The notes below the pieces were generated by a model that saw only the letters and a list, made by a program, of their open reading frames with translations, had not been told where the DNA came from and did no database searches. Below, piece by piece: positions 35,158 to 64,000 of a stretch of 64,000 bases of DNA. The position numbers and the translations under genes were made by a program. Numbering within the stretch: the stretch's first letter is position 1; the number at the start of each line of letters is the position of its first letter. The stretch comes from Skermania sp. ID1734 (GTDB taxonomy: Bacteria; Actinomycetota; Actinomycetes; Mycobacteriales; Mycobacteriaceae), in NCBI RefSeq assembly GCF_007489285.1, contig NZ_VLIY01000005.1, forward strand, positions 134,905 to 198,904. The letters run 5' to 3'.

Positions 35158-35571
35158 TCAACTGCCGTCCGCCGGAACCGCGGGAAGCCCTTCGCTGGAG
35201 CGCAGCTTTTCCGCCAGCGCCGTCAAGAGGTTTTGCGATTCTTCGGATAGATCGAAGGCACGCACGCTGAGTTGGCGCAGCCAATAACCCTCGAGTTGGG
35301 TGAGCAGCGTCAGGTCCCGTTCGATCCGGTTCGCATAGATGTCATCGAAGAAGTAGTCGGGCTTGACCTTGAAGAATCGCGCCAGCGCGTGGACCGTCTC
35401 CTTCGACGGGTTGGTCCGCTGGCCCGAGCGCAGCTGGGACAAATAGGGCTTGGAGATTGGGTGGCCGGCCGCCGTGAGCGCGGCAGCGACCTCCGCGTTG
35501 GTATGTGGTCTGCGTCCCGGTGGATGAACGGTCTCGAACAATTGGTTCAACCGTGCCGTGAAATCTGTCAT
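35158..35571 (-). CDS. EspR-like HTH regulator 1
   Basis: A 137-residue nucleoid-associated-type regulator related to mycobacterial EspR (about 132 residues). The N-terminal HTH runs from ARLNQLFETVHPPGRRPHTN to PYLSQLRSGQRTNPS (about 6-60), in which SQLRSGQRTNPS is the recognition region, followed by ARFFKVKPDYFFDD. The C-terminal helical part differs from EspR. The ATG at 35571 matches the family start. The six codons before it are conserved in frame in the paralogue at 58640 (see findings), so a longer form is possible. It is divergent from the LuxR-type regulator at the left border of the accessory locus. Confidence 0.85.
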   Translation of the reverse strand: MTDFTARLNQLFETVHPPGRRPHTNAEVAAALTAAGHPISKPYLSQLRSGQRTNPSKETVHALARFFKVKPDYFFDDIYANRIERDLTLLTQLEGYWLRQLSVRAFDLSEESQNLLTALAEKLRSSEGLPAVPADGS

Positions 35572-35972
35572 CGCGGATTGACCACATCCCTTTCCGAACG
35601 CGCGTTGACCGGATGGCTGCGCCTGACAACGTGGGCATCCCGCGTGCCGCCAAGGTGCCGTCCGATCCGGTTTGCGCAGAATTGCACCCACGCATAGCTG
35701 AGCGTTTGCTGATTTTATGGACCGAATCCGGTCACGAGCAATCCTCATCCCGGGTGATTAGCAGGGTGAATTAGCGTTGCGCGCTACCGGGCGGATGCGC
35801 AAGTGGCGGTGTAGCTCCGGCGCGTTGTCAATGATCACAAACCCTTGGGCCCTGCGGCTGCATTTTGAGTCAATAAATTCGCTAACTGATTGCTAACACT
35901 TCAGTTAGCGGGTGCGATGGGAGTAGTGTGCGGCACCTCTCGGGGTTGCTAGTTGTGGACCAAGGGGGGTGA
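35572..35972. other. Divergent regulatory region, EspR1 / LuxR-type regulator
   Basis: A 401-bp AT-richer gap. The only strong structure is the inverted repeat at 35880-35910. One CGAGCAAT octamer (35735-35742) is the reverse complement of the direct repeat found before the PPTase 1 gene. No independent gene is supported. Confidence 0.5.
35880..35910. promoter_or_regulatory. GCTAAC inverted/direct repeat operator candidate
   Basis: CGCTAACTGA (35880-35889) and TCAGTTAGCG (35901-35910) are exact reverse complements. The 11-base spacer contains a third GCTAAC in direct orientation, 11 bases from the first, one helical turn. It lies 63 bases before the regulator start. Confidence 0.6.
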
Positions 35973-38494
35973 ATGAACAGCGAGTATTCGACGGCTCCGG
36001 TAAACCGGGCCGGCGCAATAATGCGGCGCCCCCGGCTGTTCCGTCAGCTTGGATCACCCGCGCGGTTGACGTTGGTGCGCGGGCCTCGGCAATCAGGAAA
36101 GACCGCGCTGATCACGTCGTGGCTCGAAAAAACCGGGGACCGGGCAATATGGTTGCCGCGGCCCCCGGTCAACACCACGGCCGAGGAGTACTGGCGGGCC
36201 GCGCTCGCACAGATCGACCGCGATCACCAGGCCAGCACCGGTCAGTCACCGTTTTCCGCGGTTGTCGATGCGCTCGGCGCGTTGGACGTTCCCGTGGTGT
36301 TGGTTGCCGAACACCTCGACGCCGTCGATGCGGTGGCCGCCGATCAGGTCATCGAACTTCTGCAACAGTGCCCGCTTGTTTTTGTCGTGGTCGAAAAGCG
36401 AGTGCCCGTTTTCACGCGGTCGCAGCTATTACAGGTCGATTACTCGGAGGTCGATGCCGAGGATCTGCGATTCACGCGTGCAGAAACCGAGGAGCTGCAC
36501 CGAATGTTTGGCGTCGGCATTTCCCCCGCAGCGTGTGGGCGGTTATGCCGATTCGTTCTGGGTGAGGTTGCTCCGACGATGCTGGCAGTGCAGACGGCAA
36601 AGCGAATCGGATTTCCGGTGATCGATGAACTCGGCATCGTGCGACCGGAGTATTCGAGCCAGCTGGTCCGCCTGGCGGAAGAAACGCTGGCAGGTGAAGA
36701 CATGGCCGAGTGGCGAGATTTTGTGCTGACCACCGCGCCGGCGCTCACGGTCGACGCTGATACCGCTCGAATGCTCGGCATCCCCGATCCGGAACCCGCC
36801 CTGGTCGCACTTGAGGCGCTGGGCGTGCTCGAGCGACGTCGTCGCGACGATGCTTTGCGGTACCCGGCCGGATTGCGATTTGGATTGCTTGCGCTCGCGC
36901 GGCGGGACGCGAACGGCTCGGGCACCGAGTTGCTCAATGAGCTGGCTCGACGCCGTCTCGCCGCGGGTGATCCGTCTTCGGCGATGCGCTATGCCGCGGA
37001 TGCCGGAAACTGGCAGCTCGTAGGCGAAATTATCGAGTCGAACGTGGTTCGCGTCATCGAAGATGATTTGGACGAGGCGCACCGTGTGCTGCAATCGTTT
37101 CCGGCTGCCCAGCGCGGCCGGTTTCCATTGGTACAGGTCACGCGCACTCTGCTAACTGGTCTCGGGGAAGTCTCTGCTCCGCCTGTCGAATTCCCGGAAT
37201 CCACCGATGAGTTGATCCACATCGGCCGCGGACCAGAGGCGATGAAACTTGCTACCCGCGGGGTGGCGTACTCGATCGCGCTGCGACGGCGCGGCCAGTA
37301 TCAGGAGGCCGCGGCGACAGCACGACGCCTCGAGGTAATCCTCGACGCCATGGAGGCGGCCGACGGCATCGGCGCCGAACGACGGATCGCGCTGTTCCGC
37401 CAGCAACTGGCCAGTACGCTGCTGCTGGCCGGTGACGTCGATGACGCGGCGTTGCTCTTTCAGCAGGCATTTCAAAATGGTGCGAGTCACCTGCGACGGG
37501 TCACGGCTGGGTCGGTCGCGCTCGCGCGGGCACTTCAAGGTGACATGATTCGGTCCCGTCATTGGCTGGAGTCGGCCAGTCAAGCGCCGCGTCCCAGCGG
37601 TATCTGGGGGATGCTTTTCGACTGCCGGAGCAGTGCGCACAGGTGATCGCGCAGCTCGAGCGTTTCGACGTTCATGCGGCCGGTTCCTTGCTCGAGGCGT
37701 TGGGCGAGCCCGCCCATCATCAAGAGCGGTGGGCCATCGTCGCCTATGTGCGCGGCCTGTGGTCGCTGCTGCGAGGCGACGTGCACGAGGCGTTGAGCTG
37801 GGAGGCGCGACTGGTTGCTGAGCATGCGCATTTCAATTCGCCGGACTCGTTGGGCTATTCGCTGATTACGGCGGTACAGGTGGACCTCGAATTGGCGGCA
37901 GGATCGGCCAACGCTGCACTTGCGCGGGTCGCGACTGTGAACGCTGCGAGTGACCCGATCTTGCTGGTGGCGCGGGCGCGGGCTGAACTGCTGACCGGTA
38001 ATCCGCAGGCGGCGTTGACATTGGTCAGCGCGATCGCCTGGTCGCCGAGCGTGTATCCGCGGGTACGGATCGATGCCTTGCTCATCGTCGCTGCCGCTCA
38101 GCTGGCTTTCGGTCAGGACACTGAGGCGGTCACATCGTGGCGCGTCGCGTGCGCGCTGGCGGCTTCTTCTGGATGCTATTTGCCATTCGTGTTTATCGAC
38201 GCGGACCAACGGCAACGTCTTGGTGCCCTTTCTGGCGAAGCGCCGTCGGCAGTCCCGGCCGGGCTCGCGGTCTTTTCGCAGAGCTCCCTGCCGGTCGTCC
38301 GTCTGACAGCGCGCGAGGCGGAAATTCTGCGGCTGCTCGATGAGGGAATGAGCACCAAGGAAATATCCACGCTGTTGTATATTTCGGTGAATACCGTGAA
38401 ATCGCAGCTGCGAAATCTCTATCGAAAACTCGGCGTGCAAAGTCGAGAAGATGCGGTGGCGGAGGCAAAGAGACTGCAATTGCTTTCGGAGTAA
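35973..38494 (+). pseudogene. LuxR/MalT-type STAND regulator with one frameshift
   Basis: Two overlapping frames together encode one regulator of about 840 residues. The first frame (35973-37646) carries an N-terminal P-loop (VRGPRQSGKTALI, Lys43), a STAND NTPase and tetratricopeptide-like helical repeats. The second frame (to 38494) continues these repeats and ends in a LuxR HTH (LTAREAEILRLLDEGMSTKE, then ISVNTVKSQLRNLYRKLGV). Adding one G to the G5 run at 37606-37610 restores a continuous W-G-D-A-F-R-L-P-E junction. It may be a true inactivation, a phase-variable tract or a sequencing error. Its position directly before the PPTase 1/carrier operon makes it the likely pathway activator. Confidence 0.8.
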
Positions 38495-38844: not shown

Positions 38845-39258
38845 GTGGCATTGGTTGAATGTGGGCATCGAGTCGGCTGCGATGTGGTTGTTGTCGCCAA
38901 TTTTCAAGCAGATGTCGACCGGTTCGGCGAAGCTTTCATACGCAGGGTCTTCACCGCTCGTGAATTGGAGTCCTGCCGCGGCGCTTCGCGGTACCCGCGC
39001 CTCGCGGCACGATTCGCCGCTAAGGAGGCGGTTGCAAAGGTGCTCCGGCCCCACGCAACCGAAGCGCTGTCCTGGACGGACATCGAAGTACTTCGCGCGC
39101 CGTGGGGCGGCGTCGAGGTCGAGTTGTATCGCACTGCGGCCGATCTCGCACGTCGGCAGCGGCTAAGCACATTCGACGTATCTATTTCGCACGAAGAAAC
39201 CATTGCGTTCGCGGTCGTGTCCGCGCACGCATCCAACGGCGTCGGTGGAGGCGACTGA
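38845..39258 (+). CDS. AcpS-type phosphopantetheinyl transferase 1
   Basis: A 137-residue holo-ACP-synthase-like enzyme that would transfer phosphopantetheine from CoA to the carrier protein encoded next. AcpS hallmarks are GCDVV with the metal-binding Asp13 (the family usually has GID/GTD), RRVFTARELESC (33-44) and ARFAAKEAVAKVLRP (55-69), the second metal- and CoA-binding helix. The GTG at 38845 is the first in-frame start; no strong ribosome site is seen. It is distinct from the housekeeping AcpS expected elsewhere and has a paralogue at 56633. It ends one base before the carrier gene, so the two are coupled. Confidence 0.85.
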   Translation: MALVECGHRVGCDVVVVANFQADVDRFGEAFIRRVFTARELESCRGASRYPRLAARFAAKEAVAKVLRPHATEALSWTDIEVLRAPWGGVEVELYRTAADLARRQRLSTFDVSISHEETIAFAVVSAHASNGVGGGD

Positions 39259-39259: not shown

Positions 39260-39508
39260 ATGTCTTTGACTGAGGAAATGATCCGCAAGGTGCTCGAGCG
39301 GAACGGTCGATTGCTCACGCCAGCGACTGAGCTCGCTGCCGATGCGGATCTGTACCGAGCCGGATTGTCCTCGCAAGCCTCCGTTTCCGTGATGCTCGCT
39401 CTCGAGGAGTCCTTCGACATCGAGTTCCCCGACCAATTGCTCCGAAAGAGCACGTTTGCCAGCATCGACGCGATTCGTGCGGCACTTACCGAGTTGGGTG
39501 TCGAATGA
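39260..39508 (+). CDS. Carrier protein 1 (ACP-like)
   Basis: An 82-residue acidic four-helix carrier protein. The phosphopantetheine site is Ser38 in AGLSSQASVSVMLALEE: aligned with classical ACPs the DSL motif is replaced by SSQ, a change shared with its paralogue and with carriers that partner amino acid:carrier-protein ligases. The C-terminal LLRKSTFASI is also shared with carrier protein 2. The ATG follows GGAGGCGACTG. Its stop overlaps the next start (ATGA). Its position between PPTase 1 and the ligase operon points to an aminoacyl or acyl cargo. Confidence 0.88.
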   Translation: MSLTEEMIRKVLERNGRLLTPATELAADADLYRAGLSSQASVSVMLALEESFDIEFPDQLLRKSTFASIDAIRAALTELGVE

Positions 39509-40671
39509 GCGAGACCCTGACGACCGCGCCGACACTCGAACAGCAGGCACGTGAAATAGCCGATGAGATTGCCGCACAGTTCGCAGACGATGTCGATCGG
39601 CAGGCGCGCTTTCCGGTCGAGGCGATCGATGCCCTGAGATCTGCCGGGCTGCTGGCGATGGCGTTGCCAGTTGGCGACGGCGGGGCGAGCGCAAGCATGT
39701 CGGAGCTGTGCGATGTCGCGAGGATGCTCGGACAGCGTTGTGCGGCTACGGCAATGATCTTTGCGATGCACCAGTCCCAGATTGTGTCGCTGGTCCGGCA
39801 TGGCGGTGAACCGGTGCGGGGCTTCCTGCAAGAGATCGGCACAAAGGGGCTGTTGATTGCGTCAGCTACCACCGAAATCGGCATCGGCGGAGACATCCGC
39901 ACCAGCAGTTGCGCGGTGGAACCAGCGGGTGACCGCGTCTTTCTCGCCAAGACCGCGCCAGTCATCTCATACGGTGAGCACTCGGACGCCATTCTCGTCA
40001 CTGCAAGACGGTCGCCAGACAGCGCCCCTACCGATCAGGTGCTCGTCGTGTGCCGGCGCACGGACACAGTCCTCACTCAACTGAGCGAGTGGAACACCCT
40101 TGGCTTGCGGGGAACCTGCAGCCCCGGATTCAAGCTGACGGCGGATGTCCCGGCCGAGATGGTCATCGGTGACCCCTACGCCAACATCTCAGCACAAACG
40201 ATGTTGCCCGCCTCGCACTGTCTGTGGAGCGCTGTGTGGCTCGGTATCGCCGAGGGTGCGCTGGAGAAGGCGCAGCGCTTTGCCCGGCGGGCGGCTCGCA
40301 AAGATCCGGGCACAGTAACGCCGGCGGCGCTTCGCCTTGCCGAGGCGTTTGCATTGCATCAGCAGTTCGCCGATCTGGTGACCAGATCTGCGCGGCGGTA
40401 CGAAGAGCGGGCGTTTGCCGGCAGCGCCAGCGACGGTGACATCGGATATTCGCTGGCCATGAACAACCTGAAGGTGACCGCGTCGCAGTTGGTCGTAGAC
40501 GTTGTCGCCAAAGCGCTCCTGATCTGTGGAATCTCGGGCTATCGCGAGGATTCCGAATTCAGCCTCGGAAGGTCGCTTCGCGATGCTTACGGGGCGTCAT
40601 TGATGGTGAACAACGATCGGATCATGGCCAACTCGGCGCAGCTGTCCGTTGTCGCAGGCGGCCTATCGTGA
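39505..40671 (+). CDS. Acyl-CoA dehydrogenase-like flavoprotein 1
   Basis: A 388-residue flavoprotein of the acyl-CoA dehydrogenase fold: an N-terminal helical domain (1-115), a beta-barrel middle domain (ASATTEIGIGGDIRTSSC, near 118-135, lines the FAD/substrate site), and a C-terminal four-helix domain. The usual C-terminal segment with the catalytic Glu (YEGTSEI-like) is absent; GASLMVNNDRIMANSAQ stands in its place. In this locus its substrate is more likely a carrier-bound than a CoA-bound acyl or aminoacyl group (inference, by analogy with prolyl-carrier dehydrogenases). It has a paralogue at 63267. Overlaps the stop and start of its neighbours by 4 bases. Confidence 0.85.
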   Translation: MSETLTTAPTLEQQAREIADEIAAQFADDVDRQARFPVEAIDALRSAGLLAMALPVGDGGASASMSELCDVARMLGQRCAATAMIFAMHQSQIVSLVRHGGEPVRGFLQEIGTKGLLIASATTEIGIGGDIRTSSCAVEPAGDRVFLAKTAPVISYGEHSDAILVTARRSPDSAPTDQVLVVCRRTDTVLTQLSEWNTLGLRGTCSPGFKLTADVPAEMVIGDPYANISAQTMLPASHCLWSAVWLGIAEGALEKAQRFARRAARKDPGTVTPAALRLAEAFALHQQFADLVTRSARRYEERAFAGSASDGDIGYSLAMNNLKVTASQLVVDVVAKALLICGISGYREDSEFSLGRSLRDAYGASLMVNNDRIMANSAQLSVVAGGLS

Positions 40672-41588
40672 CGACGGAAGTTGTTGGCGCCGCGTACGAG
40701 TCGTTTCGAACGGAACTCGTGGACGCCGGTCTCCTCCTACCGACCGCGGTGCCGGGTCTCTATGGGCGGTCCGAGGCCTTCGAGGACATCGTCGAGGCAG
40801 TGGATGCGCTCATCTCACGGGTAGCGCCGCCAACCGCGACGAAAGTGCGGTTTCCACCCGTCTACCCGCGAGCGTCCTTCGAACGCACCGACTACATCGT
40901 GTCGTTTCCCAACTTGACCGGCACGGTGCACAGCTTCGATGGCACCGATAGCGAGCACCGGGCTTTGCTGGCAGCGAGATCCGCTGGCCAGCAATGGGAT
41001 CAGTGGCTGCATCCCGGAGAGACCTGCCTGGTGTCGGCGGCCTGTCATCCGGTGTACGAAACGCTTCCCCGGGATTTGAGCCAAGCCGGCGTCCTGTTCG
41101 ATGTTCACGGATATTGCTTCCGGCATGAGCCGTCGCCGGACCCCTTGCGAATGCAGGCCTTTCGTATGCGGGAGTTCGTCCGCGTTGGCACGGCCGTTCA
41201 GGCCACCGCGCATCGCGAGGAGTGGATCGATACCGCGCGAAACGTGTTGTGCACTCTCGATCTCGAGCCGAAGGTGGTCGGCGCGAACGATCCGTTCTTT
41301 GGTCGTGCGGGTCGAATGCTGGCTGTCAATCAGCGTGATGCCGGACTGAAAACTGAACTCGTGGTCGACCTGTACGACGGGTTGAACGAGGGCACCGCGC
41401 TGGCATCCTGCAATTATCACGAAGACCACTTCGGTGTCGGGTTTGGTATTCGCACTCCGCAGGGAACCGATGCGCACTCATCGTGCGTCGGCTTCGGCCT
41501 GGAACGTATTGCGCTGGCATTGATTCGGAGCCGTGGGTTGAACACCTCACGCTGGATTGACGATGTGCGACGACTGGTGCCGGCGTGA
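40668..41588 (+). CDS. Amino acid:[carrier protein] ligase (SerRS-like)
   Basis: Homologue of the class II aminoacyl-tRNA synthetase core that lacks a tRNA-binding arm and loads an amino acid on a carrier-protein thiol (family described from Bradyrhizobium). The 306 residues show motif 2 as YCFRHEPSP with RMREFVRVG (149-174) and motif 3 as GFGLERIALAL (275-285). Atypical SerRS relatives hold catalytic zinc with Cys-Glu-Cys; candidates here are Cys126, Glu169 and Cys273. Family members prefer small amino acids such as glycine or alanine; the specificity here is unknown. The gene overlaps the dehydrogenase and DUF1839 genes by 4 bases on each side. Confidence 0.88.
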   Translation: MTTEVVGAAYESFRTELVDAGLLLPTAVPGLYGRSEAFEDIVEAVDALISRVAPPTATKVRFPPVYPRASFERTDYIVSFPNLTGTVHSFDGTDSEHRALLAARSAGQQWDQWLHPGETCLVSAACHPVYETLPRDLSQAGVLFDVHGYCFRHEPSPDPLRMQAFRMREFVRVGTAVQATAHREEWIDTARNVLCTLDLEPKVVGANDPFFGRAGRMLAVNQRDAGLKTELVVDLYDGLNEGTALASCNYHEDHFGVGFGIRTPQGTDAHSSCVGFGLERIALALIRSRGLNTSRWIDDVRRLVPA

Positions 41589-42547
41589 CCGTACGACTGA
41601 TCAATGTTGACCCGGACGACTATCGGGCTCATCCAATTCATGGCGACGGCCGCATCTGGCCGGAAACCAACTGCTACGTCGATCTGTGGGTCGAGGTACT
41701 GCATTCACTCGGGATGGATCCGTTGCCGGTGTTGGCCCCGGCCTTGGCTGCAGACTTCGATGGCCGGCAGTGGAAGTTCCTTAAGGTGCAGCCGGAGGAC
41801 TTGTTCGATCTCTACGGCATCGAGGTCGGCGAGATGAACGTGTGGAAGCCGGTCCTCGAGCACATTTCGGACAATTGCGAGGCAGGCATCCTGTCCACCG
41901 TGGAGGTTGACGGATATTGGCTTCCGGATACCAGCGGCACCAGCTATCGACGTGAACACACGAAGACGACTGTCGTTCCGAACTACGTAGATACCGGGCG
42001 GCGGGTGCTCGAGTATTTTCACAATGGCGGTTACTACCGGTTGGTCGATGCCGATTTCGATGGGTTGTTCGGCGCGTTCTCGCGAGCCATGCCACCGTAC
42101 GTCGAGCAGGTATTCCTGGGCCGCGGCAAGCCCGGGGCCAACTACGACGTGGGAATAGCGCTGGCACACAAGTATTTGGAGCGCCGGCCCAAAGAGAACC
42201 CCGTCGCGGAGATGGGTGCCTTTGTCATCGATCAAATCCCGTGGTTGGCCAGCGAGGGCATCGACGTCTTTCACGACTGGTCGTTCGGAACCCTGCGACA
42301 GTGCGGGGCGACAGCTGAGATTGCCGCGGACTTCATGCGTTATCTGGACGCGAGGGGCGTCAGCGACGCGGACCATGCGGCACGGGCATTCGACAGCGTG
42401 GCGGGTGCGCTCAAGGCAATCCAATTCCAAGTCGCTCGCGCGGCAAACGGGCGCGGTGCGTCGTCACTCCCCGACGCGTTCGATCATGCTGCGCAGGCGT
42501 GGAGCGCCGCGTTCTTTCACACCACGTGCGCATTGTCGCTAATCTGA
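41585..42547 (+). CDS. DUF1839 family protein
   Basis: A 320-residue cytoplasmic protein of unknown function. Visible conserved-looking segments are HGDGRIWPETNCYVDLWVEV (19-38), FLKVQPEDLFDLYGIEVGEM, and HNGGYYRLVDADFDGLF. DUF1839 genes are known to accompany amino acid:carrier-protein ligases in other bacteria (recalled), so it probably handles the loaded carrier or its product. It overlaps the ligase by 4 bases and is 6 bases before the GH2 gene. Confidence 0.82.
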   Translation: MTVRLINVDPDDYRAHPIHGDGRIWPETNCYVDLWVEVLHSLGMDPLPVLAPALAADFDGRQWKFLKVQPEDLFDLYGIEVGEMNVWKPVLEHISDNCEAGILSTVEVDGYWLPDTSGTSYRREHTKTTVVPNYVDTGRRVLEYFHNGGYYRLVDADFDGLFGAFSRAMPPYVEQVFLGRGKPGANYDVGIALAHKYLERRPKENPVAEMGAFVIDQIPWLASEGIDVFHDWSFGTLRQCGATAEIAADFMRYLDARGVSDADHAARAFDSVAGALKAIQFQVARAANGRGASSLPDAFDHAAQAWSAAFFHTTCALSLI

Positions 42548-46143: not shown

Positions 46144-46390
46144 TGTCAGTTCCTCCTCAATGCCGGGAGTCGTTATCGCACGACGAATGGAGCACACGAA
46201 CGTCGCAAATAGCACTCATGGGTTGTCGCGTTAGTTTGTCTACCGCGCCGTTCCAGATGCTCCGCGGTTCGATCACATGATACCGTCGAATATCTTTGCA
46301 GGTGGACGCAGGAAGATTTCGAGAATTCGCCTTCAAGGCGAGGGTGAAAGCATAGGCGAAATTTGCGACAGTCCTCCGTCCAGCATGTGG

Positions 46391-46969
46391 TCAACAACCA
46401 TTTTGGGTGAGCGCCCGCAGCCATCCGCCAGTCTGATAGGCCCACGCGAAGAGTAATTCAGAAATACCGCGAGTCTGGGGGTACGTCGCCAGCTGTATTT
46501 GTCCAGTAAAGCAGCGACCGACGATGTATCGCGCACGATACAAGTGGTCTGTCGAAGTCACCAAGATGATGCTGCGCCAGCCGCGTTCCGCGGCGACAGT
46601 ACGTATTTCTTGCGCTTCCCCACGAGTGGTCCAAGGAACAGGCAGAAAGCAGGTAATTGAGACACGCGCCGGTGTATCGCAGATTCGTGTCATCACCGGG
46701 TCTCGGGGGCCTGCAGAGTTAGAGATCAATACCTGGGGAGCAAGACCTTCTTCGGCGAGTTGGATGCCATAGCGAAATCTCTCGTAAGTCGCGCCGCCGA
46801 GTACGACGACCGCGTCTGCAGGCTGTAGCGGCTTGCTCGTGTTCGGGTCGACGTAAACATTGCGGATCAGCGCACCTGTTGCCGCTACGAGGAACGCTAT
46901 CGTAATGCATGCCCAAAGCTTAATCCCCCTGCTAGCCAGCAGAGTTCGGGCAGGACGCTTACGTATCAC
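46391..46969 (-). CDS. YdcF/ElyC-like DUF218 membrane protein
   Basis: A 192-residue protein with one N-terminal TM helix (LWACITIAFLVAATGALI, 18-35) and a DUF218 domain: DAVVVLGGATYERFRYGIQL (52-71), ISNSAG, and VTSTDHLYRARYI, the region conserved in ElyC/SanA/YdcF proteins. Members of this family influence lipid-carrier recycling and envelope polysaccharide pathways. The GTG at 46969 overlaps the stop of a short upstream frame (GTGA). Confidence 0.82.
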   Translation of the reverse strand: MIRKRPARTLLASRGIKLWACITIAFLVAATGALIRNVYVDPNTSKPLQPADAVVVLGGATYERFRYGIQLAEEGLAPQVLISNSAGPRDPVMTRICDTPARVSITCFLPVPWTTRGEAQEIRTVAAERGWRSIILVTSTDHLYRARYIVGRCFTGQIQLATYPQTRGISELLFAWAYQTGGWLRALTQNGC

Positions 46970-55198: not shown

Positions 55199-56355
55199 CC
55201 GCGCACCTCGTGATACAGCGCGGCGTGTCGATCCGCGCACGCCGACCAGGAAAAGTTCTCCGCGTGTGCCCGGCAACGTGCAACATCTGGTCGATCACCT
55301 TGCAGCGCACCGACGAGCCTTTCGGCGAGCATCGCGGGATTTTCCGGAGGTACGACGAGGTCATGTGCGAGGTCGTGTACCGAGTCGGGTAGACCACCGA
55401 CATCGGTCACGACTGGCGCGCGACCTGCCGCCAGTGATTCGAGCGCGATCAGTCCGAACCCTTCCAGACTGCGTGTCGGCACAACGGTCACCGTTGCCGC
55501 GCGGTAGGCCTCGGTAAGTTCGGCGTCGCTAGCTTGCCCACACAGTTTTACCGAGTGTTCGATTCCCAACCCAGCTACGTGCGCGGAAAGTTCGCCAGCA
55601 ATCGAACCAGTCCCAATGATGTCCAGTTGGGCGTCCGGCACGTCGGCTAGCACCGCCGGCCAAGCATCCAGGAGCACATCCAAGCCCATACGGCGTTCGA
55701 GGCGCCGGACACACAGCACTCGCGGCGGCCCATCGGGTATCGCTGAAGGTTCGAAACGAGTCAGGTCGACACCGGGTGGAATGACGGAAACGGCCTCAGG
55801 GTGCACGCGATAGCGTTCGACCAGCAGTGCTTTGAAGGCCCTCGACAGCACGACGAACCGCTCCGATCGGCGATACCTGGCTTGTTCGACAAAACGCTGC
55901 ACGGCGACCGTTGGTTTGTTCTTTCCGGCCGCGGCACTTTCCAACGACCATGGGCCATGAAAGTGGGTCACGACGCTTGCCCCTCGTGGGGCGCCGCGAC
56001 CATACAGGGCATAGTGCCGGTCGACGATTGCGGTATCGGCTGGCGGTGCCGATCGTGAGGAACGGACCCGGCTGATCGTTCCTCTGTCGAAACTTCCCCA
56101 TGACTGCCCACCTGGGTCGGCGACACCGAAAGCTGCGGCAGTGGCGCTGATGTCGGGGCGACGCTGCAACGCGGCAAAAAGATCGCTGAAGTATCGGGTC
56201 GATCCACCTCTGTCGGTGCCGAACCAGGCGGAACCAACCATATGCACACGAATTGGGTCGACCGACGACGCGGTGAGAGCAATGCGTTCCGGTTTTGCCG
56301 CGTGAGATGCTTTGGCTTGCAGGCGAGTCGGCTGATGCCGCATCGATGTAGTCAT
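55195..56355 (-). CDS. Glycosyltransferase family 4 D
   Basis: A 386-residue GT-B enzyme with DRGGSTRYFSDLFAALQRR in the acceptor domain and RVLCVRRLERRMGLDVLLDA plus LEGFGLIALESLAAGRAPVV (EX7E) in the donor domain. The first 35 residues are a loosely conserved leader. It overlaps the carrier protein 2 gene by 4 bases (ATGA), placing a carrier protein directly at the head of a sugar-transfer operon. Confidence 0.88.
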   Translation of the reverse strand: MTTSMRHQPTRLQAKASHAAKPERIALTASSVDPIRVHMVGSAWFGTDRGGSTRYFSDLFAALQRRPDISATAAAFGVADPGGQSWGSFDRGTISRVRSSRSAPPADTAIVDRHYALYGRGAPRGASVVTHFHGPWSLESAAAGKNKPTVAVQRFVEQARYRRSERFVVLSRAFKALLVERYRVHPEAVSVIPPGVDLTRFEPSAIPDGPPRVLCVRRLERRMGLDVLLDAWPAVLADVPDAQLDIIGTGSIAGELSAHVAGLGIEHSVKLCGQASDAELTEAYRAATVTVVPTRSLEGFGLIALESLAAGRAPVVTDVGGLPDSVHDLAHDLVVPPENPAMLAERLVGALQGDRPDVARCRAHAENFSWSACADRHAALYHEVRG

Positions 56356-56636
56356 TGCATTACTCCGTCAGTCGCGGCGCGGGTTCGTATCGTCGCGATT
56401 GCATCGAGAATTGCCTCGATGCTGGCGAAGGTCGACTTGCGCAGCAGCGAATCGGGAAAGTGCAGGTCTAGAGCCTCCTCAATCGCCATCATCACGTTCA
56501 CGCTTGCGTGCGAGGACAACCCCAGGTCGTAAAGGTCAGCGGTGCGGTCGATCGTTGCTGCGGGAGCGCTCAACTGGGCACAGCTGTCCAGGCATGCTTC
56601 GACGGCGTGCAGGTCGACTATCTGCGGTGTTGTCAT
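56352..56636 (-). CDS. Carrier protein 2 (ACP-like)
   Basis: A 94-residue carrier protein. The phosphopantetheine site is Ser42 in DLGLSSHASVNVMMAIEE. It shares with carrier protein 1 the GLSS site, the hydrophobic pattern after it and LLRKSTFASI, so the two are clear paralogues. A short Ala/Thr tail follows helix 4. The ATG at 56636 overlaps the PPTase 2 stop. It lies in the polysaccharide operon between PPTase 2 and the GT4 genes. Confidence 0.87.
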   Translation of the reverse strand: MTTPQIVDLHAVEACLDSCAQLSAPAATIDRTADLYDLGLSSHASVNVMMAIEEALDLHFPDSLLRKSTFASIEAILDAIATIRTRAATDGVMQ

Positions 56637-57100
56637 GAGAATCCACCTCGGGGGTGTTGCTCCCGAGCACAGTGCTGCTGCTTGTCCATATGCCGTCCTT
56701 CCTCGAAGTCTTCGAAGGTCAGTTGGATGGCGACAACTACTGCGATCGCAATATCGGGCTGATGCGATAACGAGAGGCTGGTTGCTGCAATTCGTCGTTG
56801 ACGAGCCAGCTTCGCCGAGTGTCCGTGAAACCGCAGATCTACCGCTCCGAAAGGATGGCGAACAACTTCGATGGAAGTCCACGGAAGCATGTCGCCTGCT
56901 GGTCGTAGCACTTTTACCGCGGCCTCTTTGGCGGCCCATCGTGCAGCGAATCGCTGAGCTTGGTGTGTGCTTCCGGCACAGTCTGCTCTCTCGTTGTCGG
57001 TAAAGATCCGACCCAGATAGCGGTCACCGAACCGTTCGATGCTGGCTGCAACTTCTGAAACGGAAATTACATCGCATCCCACCTTGACCGTCTGGTTCAT
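56633..57100 (-). CDS. AcpS-type phosphopantetheinyl transferase 2
   Basis: A 155-residue paralogue of PPTase 1. It has GCDVISVSEV with metal-binding Asp10, GRIFTDNERADC (30-41) and ARWAAKEAAVKVLRPAG (53-69), the CoA/metal helix. A C-terminal extension of about 25 residues (EDFEEGRHMDKQQHCARE) is not found in PPTase 1. The ATG at 57100 overlaps the GNAT stop by 4 bases. It should activate carrier protein 2, encoded next. Confidence 0.85.
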   Translation of the reverse strand: MNQTVKVGCDVISVSEVAASIERFGDRYLGRIFTDNERADCAGSTHQAQRFAARWAAKEAAVKVLRPAGDMLPWTSIEVVRHPFGAVDLRFHGHSAKLARQRRIAATSLSLSHQPDIAIAVVVAIQLTFEDFEEGRHMDKQQHCAREQHPRGGFS

Positions 57101-57864
57101 CCTGCGAACACCCACCTTGGACGCGACCAGATTTGCCAGTGCTCGATGACCCGAGTACCGATTTGCTCGTAAGTGTGCCGCCCGGCGTCCGTGGCGAGTC
57201 CGAGCAGCACCGTCGGGCCGTGTTGTTGCGCCGCGAGATGCACGGTCGCGCCCATGAGACGTGCGGCCAGTCCCCGCCGCATCCGCGCCGGGTCAGTAGC
57301 CATTGCCCATCCGGTGATCACCGATCCGTTCCTGCATGTCACAAACGTGCTGACAAGCTGGCCCTCATCGAAAAGTCCAGTAAAGAGCGCATTTTCGTCG
57401 TTCATAACCGTGGCGGAGTAGATCGTCGCCGCCAGTTCCTCAGGCACCGCGAACGCAGCCGCGGCAATCTCCCGTGCTCTGGGTAGATCGGCCGGAACCA
57501 ATTGACGGACAGCGCGGTCCGGCGCGCCGTTGTTACTCAGCATCATCAACGGCAAGGTGCGTAGACAAACCCAATTCGCATCTGCCAGAGTCTGCGCGCC
57601 GCCCAGGCCTGCGCCGGCGAGCATCACCAACGTTGGATCTTTCGAAGCGAGAACAGTGTCAATGACTAGGGTCGTGAGTTCGGCAGCCGGCTGGTCGTGG
57701 ACCAGCGCGAGGTTATAGTCGGGCAGCAGACTTCCCGCCGACGCAATCCAGTATGCGTCTTGCACATGGTGCAACCGCTGCGCCCAAACTCCCGCGCTGA
57801 CGCCGAACGCGGTTCTGTAGGAACGTATCTCGGCCTCGGAATCCGCATGGCTGAGGGTTGTCAC
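57097..57864 (-). CDS. GNAT-family acyltransferase
   Basis: A 255-residue protein whose C-terminal 130 residues form a GNAT fold: PADLPRAREIAAAAF (helix 1), SVITGWAMATDPARMRRGLA with the acyl-CoA/pantetheine-binding loop, and TVLLGLATDAGRHTYEQIG. The N-terminal half (1-115) is not a standard GNAT domain (VWAQRLHHVQDAYWIASAG) and may bind the acceptor. The GTG at 57864 follows AAAGGA. First gene of the right-arm operon. A carrier-bound pantetheine group could replace CoA as donor (inference). Confidence 0.8.
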   Translation of the reverse strand: MTTLSHADSEAEIRSYRTAFGVSAGVWAQRLHHVQDAYWIASAGSLLPDYNLALVHDQPAAELTTLVIDTVLASKDPTLVMLAGAGLGGAQTLADANWVCLRTLPLMMLSNNGAPDRAVRQLVPADLPRAREIAAAAFAVPEELAATIYSATVMNDENALFTGLFDEGQLVSTFVTCRNGSVITGWAMATDPARMRRGLAARLMGATVHLAAQQHGPTVLLGLATDAGRHTYEQIGTRVIEHWQIWSRPRWVFAG

Positions 57865-58639
57865 GACGCGTCCTTTGTTGTGGCAGTTCGGTTGCTGTGT
57901 GGACACTCGTCCATGAAGGTCGGTGGCGCGAGGTTCACATCACATCGAAAATCGGGATAGCGCGCCGCCGCCGTCACCTGGCGCGGCCCTCGCCGGCTTG
58001 TCACATCGGTGACGCCCGGCCCCGCCCGCCGTTGTGCATGCGCCGATCACGTCTAAGTCTCGACATTGTCATTTGAAATCTGGCCCTCGTATCTGTCGGT
58101 CGGAAGCCTTTGGCACGACGCTCACGTAGCTGGCAGCCGATTCCCGACGCGGCGACCGTCAAAACGCTAGCAAACATCTCACCCTCGTCGTTACGCTTCT
58201 GTCAACCCGGCAGGGCCAGGTTTTTCAGAAACGCGCGAATCGCCTCAAAAGTACTGGTGCCGTTCGTGTTTAGCGACGCTCGGGATGGGCGCCGATTCAC
58301 CCTAGAATTAACCCTGTGATTCACGTCACATCGAGTAACAAGTCGCGAGTATTCGGCTCGCAAATGTGCAGCTAAGAAGCGGTTCGGCGGATTAGCCGCA
58401 GTTCGCAAGCCTGAAGTCGGCGAGGTTGACACTGGCCGGACCTGAAGTATGTTTTCGCTACGGGTGACTACGAGCCGCGAATCGGGGGGTCGGAACTGCC
58501 GGCGCTCCGCGTCAGCAGGAATGGGCCCGGCTTGTGCGTTTGTGTGCGGACAAGAGATTGGCCAGATCTCATCGAAAGACACGGGCGCCACGCGCTGTCG
58601 TATCGCCAACGACAGAAGAAGGGACGCGGACAGTCAGCA
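57865..58639. other. Long divergent regulatory region, GNAT operon / EspR2
   Basis: 775 bases with no supported gene. It contains three TCACATCG elements (57940-57947, 58001-58008 and 58326-58333), a GTCAC-ATCG-GTGAC dyad at 58000-58013, and a perfect CRP-type site at 58315-58330. The length suggests complex control of both the polysaccharide operon and the second EspR-like gene. Confidence 0.55.
58315..58330. promoter_or_regulatory. CRP-type operator
   Basis: TGTGATTCACGTCACA matches TGTGA-N6-TCACA at all ten defined positions. It lies 310 bases before the EspR2 ATG and 450 bases before the GNAT operon; which gene it controls is open. Confidence 0.6.
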
Positions 58640-59113
58640 ATGCACGAATTTGCGACCCGCCTGAACAGGCTATTCGATATGGCTCAACCCGTCGGACGAA
58701 AACCGATCACCAACTCCGAAGTGGTCAAAGCGCTCGCTGCGAGTGGCCACCACATATCGAACCCGTATCTATCGCAACTTCGGTCGGGCCAGCGAACCAA
58801 CCCCTCGGAAGCGACGATCACCGCGCTGGCCCGATTTTTCAAGGTAAGGCCCGACTACTTCTTCGACGATGAGTATGCCGACACCACAGAACACGACTTG
58901 CGCCTGGTGAACCAATTAAAGAACCGCGCGTTGCGTCAACTCGCTGTCCTCGCCTTTGATCTGTCCGAAGAATCTAGACACATGCTGGGAGCGTTGGCTG
59001 AGAAGCTTCGACAAACAGAAGGACTCATTCCGGATCGATTCGCAACGCCGAGATCTGCGACCCGGCACCAGGGCGCTTTTCGCGACCCGCGATCGCGCGA
59101 CGCCGTGCGGTGA
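58640..59113 (+). CDS. EspR-like HTH regulator 2
   Basis: A 157-residue paralogue of EspR-like regulator 1: FATRLNRLFDMAQPVGRKPI at the start, then NPYLSQLRSGQRTNPSEAT as recognition region, ALARFFKVRPDYFFDDEYAD, and the shared LAFDLSEESRHMLGALAEKL. It has about 20 more C-terminal residues, basic and probably disordered. The ATG at 58640 fits the family; the six codons before it are conserved in frame with paralogue 1. It marks the right shoulder of the two-armed locus and is divergent from the GNAT operon. Confidence 0.85.
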   Translation: MHEFATRLNRLFDMAQPVGRKPITNSEVVKALAASGHHISNPYLSQLRSGQRTNPSEATITALARFFKVRPDYFFDDEYADTTEHDLRLVNQLKNRALRQLAVLAFDLSEESRHMLGALAEKLRQTEGLIPDRFATPRSATRHQGAFRDPRSRDAVR

Positions 59114-59468: not shown

Positions 59469-60719
59469 ATGAGTGCGGGGCGACGCCGCGATAAAAGGAT
59501 TGGCCGTCGAGCTTTTGTCACTGGGACAGCAGCGGCCGCGGTGGGCACCGCCACGGTTGTGACCGAAATGCTCAGCCATTGGCCCGCGGACGAAACAGAA
59601 GTCGAGTTGGTTTCCAGCGCGTCGGACAATGCGTTGCCGCTGGATTACGTGAACGTCAGAGCCTCGCCATTCCACGCCGTAGGCGATGGGCAAGCTGATG
59701 ACACCGCAGCCATTGCAAACGCATACGCGTCAGCGGAGAGCAATCGTCGGCCACTTTATTTCCCAGCCGGTGTATACAAGGTTACCTCGTTACCATCGAT
59801 CGCGAGCTACATGACCGTCCTTGGCGGCGGCGAGGACCTGAGCACTATCCTTTACCAGGGCACCGGAACTCTGCTGACCTTGTCGAACGCCCAGCGTGTG
59901 GCCTTCAAGAAGATCGGCTTCTGGCTAACTGGGGCCAGCGGGACGATCGTCTCGCTGGACCAGTGCTTCCGCTGTTCGTTCGACTCAGTGGTTTTCAGAG
60001 GGCAACACGTAGACACCTCGGCATACTTGAACCAGACCGGCGTCATCCTGACCGGGAATACCGGCGGTACGACGTTCATAAACTGTGACTTCACCAATCT
60101 GGGTATCGGCCTGCAAACATCGTGCATTCAAAACTACATCACAAACTCCAAGTTCAATAGCAACAATGTGAGCATTCTTGGAACTAGTAACAATTTTAAT
60201 GCCGGATTGGCGATCCAGAACACCGATTTCGTATCTACCGCAAGGGTGACTGATAAGCACATCTACATCGACGGCAAGGCCAACAACTGGTGGCTGACGA
60301 ACGTCTGGTTTGAGGGCGCCCGTTCCGCGATTGTGGTCGGTGAAGCCAGTGTGGGCGGACCATCCCAGTTCGGCATGGTGAACTGCCAAGTGGCGGCCAC
60401 CAAATTCGGACTAGACCTCCAATACTGCCGGCAACCGTACCTGGCCAATGTCATCTTCTATCCCGATAGTGGTGGTTCGTCACCAACCTTCTTGCGGATC
60501 AATCCACAGACAGTCCCGCAAGGCTCAGCGATTAACCTCATCAACACCGCGGAATACGACTTTCCACTGTCAACATTTCCGTCGGGCTGGAATGTCATCG
60601 GTCGCGCAATAACGGTCAACGCAAACGGGCCGATTGTCTTGTCGCCGAACGGTCATGCCTGGCAACTAAAGGTCAGTAACACGGGCGCGCTGACAGCTGC
60701 CGACCTCGGTGTGATCTGA
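59469..60719 (+). CDS. Secreted right-handed beta-helix (pectate-lyase-3-like) protein 1
   Basis: A 416-residue exported protein. The N-terminus has a Tat-type signal (GRRAFVTGTAAAAVGTA at 12-28, twin Arg followed by A-F). The body starts with VNVRASPFHAVGDGQADDTA (61-80) and LYFPAGVYKV, the standard start of pectate-lyase-3/tail-spike beta-helices, then repeated short strands (GTTFINCDFTNLGIGLQT, NVWFEGARSAIVVG). The fold often cleaves or binds acidic polysaccharides. Catalytic residues cannot be assigned. It has a paralogue 1.2 kb downstream. Confidence 0.8.
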   Translation: MSAGRRRDKRIGRRAFVTGTAAAAVGTATVVTEMLSHWPADETEVELVSSASDNALPLDYVNVRASPFHAVGDGQADDTAAIANAYASAESNRRPLYFPAGVYKVTSLPSIASYMTVLGGGEDLSTILYQGTGTLLTLSNAQRVAFKKIGFWLTGASGTIVSLDQCFRCSFDSVVFRGQHVDTSAYLNQTGVILTGNTGGTTFINCDFTNLGIGLQTSCIQNYITNSKFNSNNVSILGTSNNFNAGLAIQNTDFVSTARVTDKHIYIDGKANNWWLTNVWFEGARSAIVVGEASVGGPSQFGMVNCQVAATKFGLDLQYCRQPYLANVIFYPDSGGSSPTFLRINPQTVPQGSAINLINTAEYDFPLSTFPSGWNVIGRAITVNANGPIVLSPNGHAWQLKVSNTGALTAADLGVI

Positions 60720-60785: not shown

Positions 60786-61928
60786 ATGCATCGGTTGAGC
60801 GAGTCAACAGCCACAATCCCACGCCGACGCTTGAGTTCACTTCAGGTCGGCCGCGGCTTGGCGGCGCTTGCGGTTGTAGCGTTCCATGTAAATGACACAA
60901 TGGCGAAGAGTAAGTATTTTGGACACGGTCCAGCAGGGATTTTTCGTGCGGGAGACTCCGGAGTTAACTACTTCTTCGTACTGAGCGGATTCGTAATTCT
61001 GATCGCGCATTGGTCCGACTTTCAAAAGGGTGACGCGGTATCGTTGTTCGCTTGGAAGCGATTTAGACGAATTTATCCTCTGCTTTGGTTCGTTCTGGTC
61101 TGCTTATGTGCACTATTTATTGTTGTCCCATCCCTAAGGTCAGACGCACAAGTTGGATTCGGTGCCGTGGTCTCGGCATTTCTCACACTGCCCGCGAAGC
61201 ATGAGGTGTTTCTCTTCGTGGAGTGGACGCTGCGGCATGAGTTGCTGTTCTACATCGCATTCGCAATCGCCTTGTGGAGACTCCGTGTCGGCGTGTTGAT
61301 TGCAATTATTTGGACGACGCTTTCGGTGGTACAAATGGTGACCGACTGGCCGTATCCAGCGAGTTTCTTCCTCACGCCGTTTCACTTCCTGTTTGCGTTT
61401 GGCATGATCGCTGCAATAGCTTACATAAGAAATATTCACGTCGCTCCTGTGTCAATTCTTATCACAGGAGCTGTTGGTTTCGCGGCTTGCTGGCTTCTCG
61501 TGGTATTCGCTGATATCCCTAGCGGTTCGGCGTCAATAATCATCGGGAGAGGCGTAGGTGCCGTTCTCATCGTTTATGGTAGTGCTGTCCTAGAATCGCG
61601 GGGTGCGCTGAAGTTCCCGCGTAGCCTCCTAGTCCTCGGTGATGCCTCCTATGCTTTATACTTGGTGCATTTCCCGGTTGTTTCTGTGCTAACGAAGATT
61701 GCGTTTTATGTTCATCAACGAATCGCTTATCCGCCGGTGTTGGCCGTTCCGATCATGATTACGATTGCGACCGTGGTCGGTGTTGGTGCTCATTTCTCAA
61801 TCGAGAAACCGATGTTGAGTCGACTAAATGGTAGACCTTGGCGAGCGTCGCGACGGGTTGCCTCCAAGCGACAATGTGAGCTAGCGCATACCTCTTGCAG
61901 CAGCACCAATCCAGAGCACCGCGGATGA
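60786..61928 (+). CDS. Acyltransferase family 3 (OafA/YrhL-like) membrane protein
   Basis: A 380-residue membrane O-acyltransferase with about ten TM helices. LQVGRGLAALAVVAFHVND (19-37) carries the catalytic-site Arg and His of the family, and SGVNYFFVLSGFVI (58-71) is the second motif. It would acetylate or acylate a surface sugar. The gene is visibly AT-richer than the core genes, with many TTT, AAT and ATT codons, a sign of transfer. Its stop overlaps the next start (ATGA). Confidence 0.87.
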   Translation: MHRLSESTATIPRRRLSSLQVGRGLAALAVVAFHVNDTMAKSKYFGHGPAGIFRAGDSGVNYFFVLSGFVILIAHWSDFQKGDAVSLFAWKRFRRIYPLLWFVLVCLCALFIVVPSLRSDAQVGFGAVVSAFLTLPAKHEVFLFVEWTLRHELLFYIAFAIALWRLRVGVLIAIIWTTLSVVQMVTDWPYPASFFLTPFHFLFAFGMIAAIAYIRNIHVAPVSILITGAVGFAACWLLVVFADIPSGSASIIIGRGVGAVLIVYGSAVLESRGALKFPRSLLVLGDASYALYLVHFPVVSVLTKIAFYVHQRIAYPPVLAVPIMITIATVVGVGAHFSIEKPMLSRLNGRPWRASRRVASKRQCELAHTSCSSTNPEHRG

Positions 61929-63196
61929 TGGAGCAATCAAGTCGCGAGCGAGAGGAAGCGGTGCGCCAGGAGTCTCTCGAAGGCGATTGCGACGAGCGGG
62001 AGCAGAGCCGCACATCCCGCGCAGCGGTAGGAATAGGCGCAGTTGGAGTGGGCGCAGTGCTCGCCGGAGTGTTCCTAACCAGCAGCGGGCAAAGTCCGGA
62101 TACCGCAGATCGATCACTGCCGCTAGGATGCGTGAACGCCAAATCCGATCCCTTCAAAGCGGTCGGTGACAGTAACGCCGACGACACCAACGCTCTCGCA
62201 AAGGCCTACGCTGCGGCAGCAGGCACTGGGCGCCCGCTTTACTTACCGCCTGGCGTTTACCGGGTCACTAGGCTTCCGAAGTTTGCGAGCCACGCAACGG
62301 TGTCGGGGGCGGGCGCAGATCTCACCACTGTCTTATATGAGGGCGATGAGACACTGTTGGCATTAGCCAATGTCGATGGAGTGTCAATTCAGAACTTGGG
62401 CTTATGGGTGACAGGTACTACCGGTACCGCTATCGAATTAGTGGACGCGACGCGCTGTGCGTTTGATTCGGTACGGGTGCGCGGCCAGCACGACGCGGAC
62501 ACGCCATTTCGGAGCCAGACCGGTATTGTGCTCGCCGGCCGCACGATCGGTACCTCGTTCATTAATTGCGATATTGACAACTGTGGTATCGGAGCGCGGA
62601 TATCCAGCCCGTTCAATTCGTTCACTGAGTCGAAGTTTTCCACAAATTACACCAGCATTTGGTGTCAGGATGGCTCGATCGGAGCGGGCCTGGCGATCTC
62701 GAACTCGGAGTTCGTCTCGAAGGCGCCCGCAACCGACTGCCACCTTCGCATCGAGGGCGACGCCGGTAGGTGGTCATTGACGAACGTCTGGTTCGAGGGT
62801 GCCCAGTCGGCGATTGTGGTAGGGCAATCTGGCGGCAATGGACCCTTACAATTCGGAATGACTAACTGCTTCGTTTCCGGCACCGGTGCCGGGCTTGACA
62901 TCCAGTCTTGCCGGCACCCTTATCTGGCCAATGTGATTTTTGCTCTCGACCTAAACGGTTTGGCTGATTCGATGCTACGGATCGATCCGGCGAACGCTCC
63001 TGCCGGAATCGCCATCAACCTGGTCAACAGCGTGGTGAGAGAGTTTCCAGTGAAGACATTTCCTGCAGGTTGGACGATATACGGGAACGGCGGCGTTATT
63101 GAGGCCGGTGGGCCGACTATCCAGGGTGCGGATGGCCGTACGTGGCGAATTACTGTCTCCGACCGGGGAGAAGTTGGAGTCACCCCTGCCGGGTGA
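61925..63196 (+). CDS. Right-handed beta-helix protein 2
   Basis: A 423-residue paralogue of the protein at 59469. Common segments are LPLGCVNAKSDPFKAVGDSN, GRPLYLPPGVYRVTRLP, LTNVWFEGAQSAIVVGQSGG, QFGMTNC and PYLANVIF. The N-terminus has a charged cytoplasmic stretch (1-32) and one hydrophobic segment (AAVGIGAVGVGAVLAGVFL), so it is membrane-anchored or exported by an atypical signal. The ATG at 61925 is coupled to the acyltransferase stop by ATGA overlap; a TTG 30 bases upstream is the longer alternative. Confidence 0.78.
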   Translation: MMEQSSREREEAVRQESLEGDCDEREQSRTSRAAVGIGAVGVGAVLAGVFLTSSGQSPDTADRSLPLGCVNAKSDPFKAVGDSNADDTNALAKAYAAAAGTGRPLYLPPGVYRVTRLPKFASHATVSGAGADLTTVLYEGDETLLALANVDGVSIQNLGLWVTGTTGTAIELVDATRCAFDSVRVRGQHDADTPFRSQTGIVLAGRTIGTSFINCDIDNCGIGARISSPFNSFTESKFSTNYTSIWCQDGSIGAGLAISNSEFVSKAPATDCHLRIEGDAGRWSLTNVWFEGAQSAIVVGQSGGNGPLQFGMTNCFVSGTGAGLDIQSCRHPYLANVIFALDLNGLADSMLRIDPANAPAGIAINLVNSVVREFPVKTFPAGWTIYGNGGVIEAGGPTIQGADGRTWRITVSDRGEVGVTPAG

Positions 63197-63266
63197 CGGC
63201 ATGGCTTTGTCTAAGACGCTTACCGGCGTACGCGGAGATCGTTCTGGGCGAACCTGGTCATCGATC

Positions 63267-64000
63267 TCAGTAGTTGCGAACGCCAAGTAGCAACTCCGCA
63301 TTGCTCCGGCGGATCCTCCCGTTGTTCACCATGATCGGTGCAGAGAGGGCGTCGCGGATGATGCGGCTCATGCTGTCGGGGGAGTCGAGCCGATAACCCG
63401 AGATCCCGCAGATGGTGGCAGCTCCGATGACGATCTCAATGAGGGCCTGCGATTGGCTGAGCTTAACGGTGTCCATCCGGACCGACTCCCGTCGAGTTGG
63501 CGGTCGCACGTCGACCAACGGGCCAAAATCGTGGATCGATGACTGCACACTGTCGCGCATGGCCTGCAACGTGACCACCAGATCGGCAAGAGCCAATGCG
63601 GAGTCGGGCGTTTCACCGATCTGCTTGCGGGCTTGGCGAGAAACCACCTTCTGGGCCCGGAGAAAGGCGCTTTCGGCGATGCCGAGCCAAGCCGAGCCGC
63701 GCAGGATGTTGGCGACTGGAACGTACGTACAGGCCTGCACAGCTGCAGTGTCGGGCAGGATCTGATCAGTCGAGCCGGACGCGCTGATATGGAAGGCGTT
63801 GCTGCAGGTTCCGCGAAGTCCAAAGGTGTCCCATGGGCCGATCTCCCGAAGCTCGAGGGCCGGCGGAAAACACAGCACGGCAACTTGGTCACCTGGAACG
63901 CTTTCGGGCGTTCGGCGGGCTGCGACCACGAGGCAGTCGGCGTAGCGGCCGAATGAGACGGTGGCAGCCTCCTTCTCCAATCGGAACTGCTCACCATTGG
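63267..64000 (-). CDS. Acyl-CoA dehydrogenase-like flavoprotein 2 (5' truncated by the window)
   Basis: C-terminal 240 or so residues of a paralogue of dehydrogenase 1; the frame is open to the right edge. Shared segments include GRYADCLVVAARRTPESVPG (compare ILVTARRSPDSAPTDQVLV), WDTFGLRGTCS, ATICGISGYRLDSPDSMS and APIMVNNGRIRRSNAELL. Like paralogue 1 it lacks the usual C-terminal Glu-containing catalytic segment. The 5' part and probably more of the locus lie beyond the window. Confidence 0.83.
   Translation of the reverse strand, partial: NGEQFRLEKEAATVSFGRYADCLVVAARRTPESVPGDQVAVLCFPPALELREIGPWDTFGLRGTCSNAFHISASGSTDQILPDTAAVQACTYVPVANILRGSAWLGIAESAFLRAQKVVSRQARKQIGETPDSALALADLVVTLQAMRDSVQSSIHDFGPLVDVRPPTRRESVRMDTVKLSQSQALIEIVIGAATICGISGYRLDSPDSMSRIIRDALSAPIMVNNGRIRRSNAELLLGVRNY

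Follow-up and report, generated by a model that had tools for sequence, protein, structure and literature searches.

Gene content of the locus

The window analysed here is a stretch of 64,000 nucleotides of Skermania sp. ID1734 (contig NZ_VLIY01000005.1; G000:C45:134905-198904 in the 5.12-Mb genome). From position 35158 on, it carries a two-armed locus in which genes for an amino acid:[carrier protein] ligase (LIG) and its carrier lie next to genes for the assembly of a polysaccharide. The left arm, on the forward strand, comprises a split LuxR-type regulator, a phosphopantetheinyl transferase (PPTase), carrier protein 1 (CP1), a flavoprotein resembling acyl-CoA dehydrogenases (ACAD), the ligase, a DUF1839 protein and a glycosidase of family GH2; its genes between 38845 and 44998 overlap or almost touch. 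The right arm, on the reverse strand, comprises a GNAT acyltransferase, a PPTase, carrier protein 2 (CP2), two GT4 glycosyltransferases, a Wzx-type flippase, a further glycosyltransferase, a polytopic protein in the Wzy position, Wzz, a tandem hydrolase (HYD), a DUF218 protein and another GT4 enzyme. Pfam scans and inspection of the open reading frames confirmed the gene list, order and strands given in the first-pass annotation of this DNA (Table 1).

The left arm is a candidate loading module

An amino acid:[carrier protein] ligase, Bll0957 of Bradyrhizobium, was reportedly described by Mocibob et al. in 2010, and Atu2571 is said to be a carrier from Agrobacterium. The ligase of the window matches the Bll0957-type structures 4h2w/3mey (6e-64) with conservation of the zinc ligands, which we take to be the zinc-binding residues of Bll0957; C126, E169 and C273 (Cys, Glu, Cys) are invariant in diverse homologues. 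By its NCBIfam match it belongs with the class II aaRS-like ligases, its active site is of the atypical SerRS-like type, and its alignment to seryl-tRNA synthetase (SerRS) covers only the catalytic part. The best PDB matches of CP1 are Atu2571 and the aminoacyl carrier protein 4h2w_C, and both carriers fall into NF005480, the family of cognate carriers. The strong homology of the PPTase, carrier and ligase thus identifies the left arm as a putative amino acid:carrier ligase module, and the predicted loading of an amino acid on the carrier is well supported. Judging from characterised homologues, this amino acid is presumably small.

The surroundings of the ligase were counted within 10 kb in 70 named loci with full flanks. 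A carrier was present in 69 of them, an ACAD in 63, the hydrolase in 47 and DUF1839 in 42. GH2 was found in the same 42 loci, always together with DUF1839, which suggests that it probably serves the transfer step discussed below or its product.

The two arms are linked across genomes

Comparison with other genomes of the family was based on an evenly drawn, non-exhaustive sample (n = 350), and the window genome's own genus was counted too. The ligase occurs in 113 of 351 genomes, a homologue of the Wzy-position protein in 40, and strong ligase matches together with the latter in 20. In 17 of these 20 genomes, from eight genera including the window's own, both genes lie no more than 25 kb apart on one contig, in several cases within a single gene run. 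The two arms thus behave as one locus; the first-pass annotation had named a general location of the arms in unrelated genomic places as the outcome that would speak against it, and this was not what we found.

The linkage extends to the flippase. A Wzx-type flippase lies within 25 kb of the ligase in at least 37 of 72 ligase genomes (about 1.5 expected), and a flippase or a priming transferase in at least 41 of the 72 (about 2.9 expected) and in 10 of 15 genera; these counts are lower bounds, and the expectation assumes 5-Mb genomes, the listed matches only and independent species, which the species in this statistic are not. The priming transferase belonging to the window (G000:C45:199769) was added to the matches by hand, which leaves the flippase count unaffected. 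On the ligase tree the association label needs 10 changes, and at least six are forced by supported branches, so the association is not the accident of one lineage.

Fused loci were found in Williamsia faeni (L171) and Enemella evansiae (L220), the latter from a genus outside the Mycobacteriales. In both, the genes for carrier, ACAD, ligase, GT4a, GT4b, Wzx, glycosyltransferase, Wzy, Wzz, hydrolase and lyase form one run. In Mycolicibacterium L206 the neighbours of the ligase are three GT4 genes, a flippase other than that of the window and Wzy_C, a protein of the O-antigen-ligase type.

The polysaccharide set continues beyond the window

The locus extends past position 64000 with a second ACAD-like gene (63267-64442), followed by further genes. 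Among these are a priming polyprenyl glycosylphosphotransferase, a third lyase-like protein, a GH5 protein, a desaturase, GT4 genes, a hexapeptide protein and a GDP-mannose 4,6-dehydratase. The flippase, Wzz, the priming transferase and the glycosyltransferases are assigned by strong homology of their sequences. With them, a candidate is present for every step of polyprenol-linked assembly, the polymerase candidate being the one that lacks profile support. Between the priming transferase and a decayed PPTase copy lie the genes for a DUF6875 protein and an ATP-grasp protein. A relative of the ATP-grasp protein was also observed near a PPTase-carrier-GNAT unit in L246, from a genome with no match to the ligase.

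DUF1839 resembles carrier-dependent amide synthases

A search of DUF1839 against PDB sequences gave no match, and the structure was therefore predicted. The AlphaFold model (35 sequences) has a pLDDT of 93.7 and superimposes on CcbD (7yn2) with Z 19.8 and an rmsd of 3.4 over 286 residues. AziU2/U3 (Z 18.4) and CtaG (Z 17.3) are similarly close, and the next unrelated row has a Z of 8.1; Foldseek gave an E value of 7.5e-7 to AziU3/U2. In the alignment of 35 sequences Cys30 and His146 never vary, and Thr128/129 hardly do. A C(T/S)H triad has been proposed for DUF1839 (PMC10318531), and in the sequence alignment the conserved residues fit this variant with Thr128/129 in the partner position. In the reaction of CcbD, proline is first moved from a carrier protein to the catalytic cysteine of the enzyme and then onto the amine of a thiooctose (PMC12945683). 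DUF1839 looks like a transfer enzyme of this kind, which would supply the missing amide-forming step; fold and residues carry the case, and the neighbouring genes suggest the reaction.

The ACAD-like flavoprotein has a conserved asparagine (N370) where the classical catalytic glutamate usually sits (alignment of 95 sequences). Since this glutamate is missing, desaturation seems less likely than N- or alpha-oxidation. The tandem hydrolase is related, below the cut-offs, to exosortase-A-associated hydrolases 2 and 1. It was found near the ligase in 26 of the 28 named loci without DUF1839, and the two seem to alternate at this place.

Symmetry and the second carrier

The near mirror symmetry noted in the first-pass annotation holds in part: EspR-like genes do flank both arms, and these, the PPTase and the carrier are the gene types duplicated between the arms inside the window. 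Identity between the arms is 67% for the EspR-like proteins, 46% for the PPTases and 51% for the carriers. CP1, PPTase 1 and the first ACAD are nearer to their counterparts in other genomes (65, 55 and 63%, respectively) than to their partners in the locus, which rules out a recent inverted duplication. The EspR-like pair alone looks closer, with an inverted blastn match of 69.8% over 281 bp. EspR-like genes close to the ligase were also seen in Gordonia sputi and other genomes (L092, L110, L219).

A second carrier is found elsewhere as well. In seven genomes of genus g6 (Rhodococcoides group) its gene and that of a GNAT homologue, which shares 40-47% identity, point away from each other inside the locus that also contains the ligase and Wzx. 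These carrier-GNAT units adjoin a lyase-like gene and, in five stretches read further, also a priming transferase. The layout with two carriers and a GNAT thus recurs in another genus. A search of the GNAT against PDB sequences gave no match.

Further genes of the locus

The LuxR-type regulator is open in two overlapping frames, and thus it is frameshifted, affected by a sequencing error, or composed of two genes. A single-frame open reading frame of 883 amino acids with a GerE domain further along is present at L247:8493-11144. The left end of the locus is adjoined by a GGDEF diguanylate cyclase gene (33967-35145), and GGDEF genes are also close to the ligase in loci of Rhodococcus and Williamsia, hinting at control of the locus by c-di-GMP. 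At the other end, the membrane acyltransferase lies between the pectate-lyase-like proteins PEC1 and PEC2, of which one is conserved across most of the polysaccharide loci, also where the ligase is absent.

Table 1. Genes of the locus in the window and in the adjoining sequence. Positions are those of the window; positions with the prefix L081 lie past its end.
Feature	Position	Strand	Basis and remarks
EspR-like regulator HTHa	35158-35748	-	PF01381; EspR structures 3qf3/3r1f, E 2e-34; conserved core about 35158-35571
LAL/LuxR-type regulator	35973-38494	+	AAA part 35973-37646; GerE part 37562-38494
PPTase 1 (AcpS type)	38845-39258	+	PF01648, 4.6e-17; TIGR00556 over cut-off
Carrier protein 1 (CP1), 82 aa	39260-39508	+	NF005480, 99 bits (cut-off 72); phosphopantetheine site DLYxAGLSS
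ACAD-like flavoprotein	39505-40671	+	PF02771; without classical catalytic Glu
Amino acid:[carrier protein] ligase (LIG)	40668-41588	+	NF005479, 401 bits (cut-off 357)
DUF1839, predicted CcbD/LmbD-like carrier-dependent amide synthase	41585-42547	+	PF08893, 1.5e-99
GH2, beta-mannosidase-like glycosidase	42554-44998	+	family profile match
GT4 glycosyltransferase c	45046-46215	-	PF00534; recurrent in the polysaccharide set
DUF218 membrane protein	46391-46969	-	PF02698; recurrent in polysaccharide loci
Tandem alpha/beta hydrolase (HYD)	47223-49133	-	TIGR03101, 69 bits; TIGR03100, 54 bits; both below cut-off
Wzz chain-length determinant	49033-50418	-	PF02706 over cut-off; TIGR01006 below cut-off
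Polytopic protein, Wzy position	50405-51793	-	about 9 hydrophobic segments
Glycosyltransferase (Glyco_trans_1_2)	51790-53241	-	PF13524; true start probably near 52800
Wzx-type MOP flippase	52791-54038	-	PF01943, 2.3e-18, over cut-off
GT4 glycosyltransferase b	54035-55276	-	profile match
GT4 glycosyltransferase a	55195-56355	-	profile match; homologue directly after the ligase in fused loci
Carrier protein 2 (CP2), 94 aa	56352-56636	-	NF005480, 85 bits (cut-off 72); DLYDLGLSS
PPTase 2	56633-57115	-	PF01648, 6.5e-18
GNAT acyltransferase	57097-57906	-	PF08445, marginal; adjoins PPTase 2 and CP2
EspR-like regulator HTHb	58532-59113	+	PF01381
PEC1, pectate-lyase-like/epimerase-type protein	59469-60719	+	PF12708; conserved in most polysaccharide loci
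Membrane O-acyltransferase (Acyl_transf_3)	60786-61928	+	PF01757
PEC2, pectate-lyase-like protein	61895-63196	+	50% identical to PEC1
Second ACAD-like flavoprotein	63267-64442	-	runs past the window end at 64000; 41% identical to the first ACAD
Priming polyprenyl glycosylphosphotransferase	L081:865-2523		starts 865 bases past the window edge; TIGR03025, 355 bits (cut-off 295.55)
DUF6875 protein; ATP-grasp protein	L081:2785-4733		between priming transferase and decayed PPTase; ATP-grasp weakly dipeptide-ligase-like
Third PPTase copy, decayed	L081:4922-5330		about 4.9 kb past the window end; most like PPTase 1; internal stop codons

A proposed pathway and its alternatives

We consider it fairly probable that the locus makes a surface polysaccharide and includes a module for decorating it with an amino acid. 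A group derived from the amino acid would probably be attached to the polysaccharide, with a sugar as its putative acceptor. According to this proposal the PPTase, a member of a well-supported family, would arm carrier 1, and the ligase, on its strong homology to Bll0957, would adenylate a small amino acid and load it on the carrier. The ACAD-like flavoprotein might then oxidise the carrier-bound aminoacyl group, and DUF1839, as a CcbD/LmbD-like cysteine acyltransferase by its predicted fold, may link this group as an amide to the amine of a sugar in the repeat unit. The repeat unit would be started by the priming glycosylphosphotransferase and extended by the GT4 enzymes. As their families suggest, Wzx would flip the decorated repeat and the Wzy-position protein would polymerise it together with Wzz; the polymer could then receive O-acyl groups and be trimmed by the lyase-like proteins together with GH2. 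A second carrier-dependent acyl transfer, probably for a second decoration, may be carried out by carrier 2 with PPTase 2 and the GNAT.

Several observations weigh against this proposal. No Pfam or PDB profile match was obtained for the Wzy-position protein among 16 homologues, and its model, made from a three-sequence alignment, is poor (pLDDT 45); the first-pass label Wzy agrees with position and topology and finds no support in profiles. An aminotransferase that would provide a free amino sugar was not recognised among the genes scanned in the locus and the next 33 kb. The carrier tree is too poorly resolved to show orthology of CP2 with the GNAT-side carriers of Rhodococcoides or to tie CP2 to the ligase. 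In about half of the tested ligase genomes there is no flippase within 25 kb of the ligase, DUF1839 is absent near the ligase in 28 of the 70 named loci, and 20 of the 40 genomes with the Wzy-position protein are without a strong ligase match. The polysaccharide set without ligase is found chiefly in genus g23. Since each part is also found alone, neither the ligase module nor the polysaccharide set needs the other, and the module is most readily understood as an optional unit for decoration.

The genomes without a nearby flippase, for instance those of the g27 Rhodococcus group, contain ligase, carrier, ACAD, DUF1839 and GH2, which would also fit a carrier module that makes a separate small molecule or glycolipid, such as an aminoacylated sugar metabolite, and only shares a cell-envelope gene island with its neighbours. 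The nearest structures to DUF1839, moreover, are enzymes of small-molecule antibiotic pathways. This explanation appears rather doubtful to us, however, given the fused runs, known from several genera and from another order, in which the ligase directly precedes GT4 genes, the association of the ligase with a different Wzx/Wzy set in Mycolicibacterium, and the priming sugar transferase close to the ligase in many loci. The presence of the tandem hydrolase in nearly all named loci that lack DUF1839, together with the GNAT homologue beside the second carrier in seven loci, could mean that one of these two enzymes transfers the carrier-bound group and that DUF1839 and GH2 form a side branch. We think this unlikely, as the fold of DUF1839 is that of the carrier-dependent amide synthases and its active-site residues are conserved, and the hydrolase falls below the cut-offs of its families. 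An accidental juxtaposition of the arms in this genome, with a symmetry arisen by chance, would be compatible with a symmetry that is made up of three gene types inside the window, two of them anciently diverged. The close linkage in 17 of the 20 genomes that have both genes largely refutes it, and the arrangement of two carriers and a GNAT recurs in another genus, which makes such an accident very improbable.

Comparison with known systems

The first-pass annotation had proposed a pathway attaching an amino-acid-derived group to a surface polysaccharide and knew of no described mycobacterial system like it. The view of the arms as one locus held, and the DUF1839 fold fits the amide step that was missing; the lack of a described precedent did not hold, because Iyer et al. 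(2010; PMC2922099) had already predicted, for this ligase family and without singling out mycobacteria, that an amino acid is ligated to a cell-surface sugar. In the searchable literature, outside of which most subscription papers lie, we found no pathway product for amino acid:carrier ligases and no test of the prediction from 2010, and searches by locus tag for later work on the ligase and carrier genes returned in substance only PMC2922099.

The gene context of the Bll0957/Atu2571 system was described by Iyer et al. (2010). The locus shares with it the ligase and carrier families, and in both cases a dehydrogenase, a glycosidase and an uncharacterised protein that is conserved lie alongside. 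The locus differs in being actinobacterial and in having a full polysaccharide assembly set, EspR-like regulators, two carriers, two PPTases, two dehydrogenases and a GNAT. The similarity of DUF1839 to CcbD/LmbD, and also to CtaG and AziU2/U3, covers nearly the whole length of the fold (Z 17-20) and includes the conserved cysteine at the start of the N-terminal helix. These CcbD/LmbD/CtaG enzymes transfer a carrier-bound aminoacyl or acyl group to an amine, and the acceptor of CcbD is an amino sugar. DUF1839 is, in contrast, only 13-14% identical to CcbD/LmbD, and its conserved residues fit C-(T/S)-H rather than Cys-His-Glu; furthermore, loading is here assigned to a ligase resembling aminoacyl-tRNA synthetases, and the gene lies in a polymer locus instead of an antibiotic cluster. 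The wps/imp clusters of Actinoplanes missouriensis (PMC13390465) likewise contain a flippase, a chain-length determinant, glycosyltransferases, and modification and glycosidase genes, whereas genes for carrier-protein aminoacylation did not appear in the parts of that paper reached by a term search. The present analysis adds an actinobacterial locus that includes polymer assembly genes, the linkage in numbers, the fold resemblance to CcbD, the layout with two carriers and a GNAT, and the alternation of DUF1839 and the hydrolase.

A wider proposal would be that polysaccharide repeats of Mycobacteriaceae bear two carrier-delivered groups, an oxidised aminoacyl group made by the ligase, ACAD and DUF1839 and an acyl or aminoacyl group delivered by carrier 2 and the GNAT. 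We regard this as possible but tentative; if it were true, tethered aminoacyl-carrier chemistry would be a general way of decorating polymers before export. The locus and its fused relatives tie the ligase to a nearly complete polysaccharide set and to DUF1839 with its predicted fold of a carrier-to-amino-sugar amide synthase. The question of what these ligases are for thereby becomes directly testable, and the locus would draw attention to surface polysaccharides of Rhodococcus, Williamsia and environmental mycobacteria that are still unexplored.

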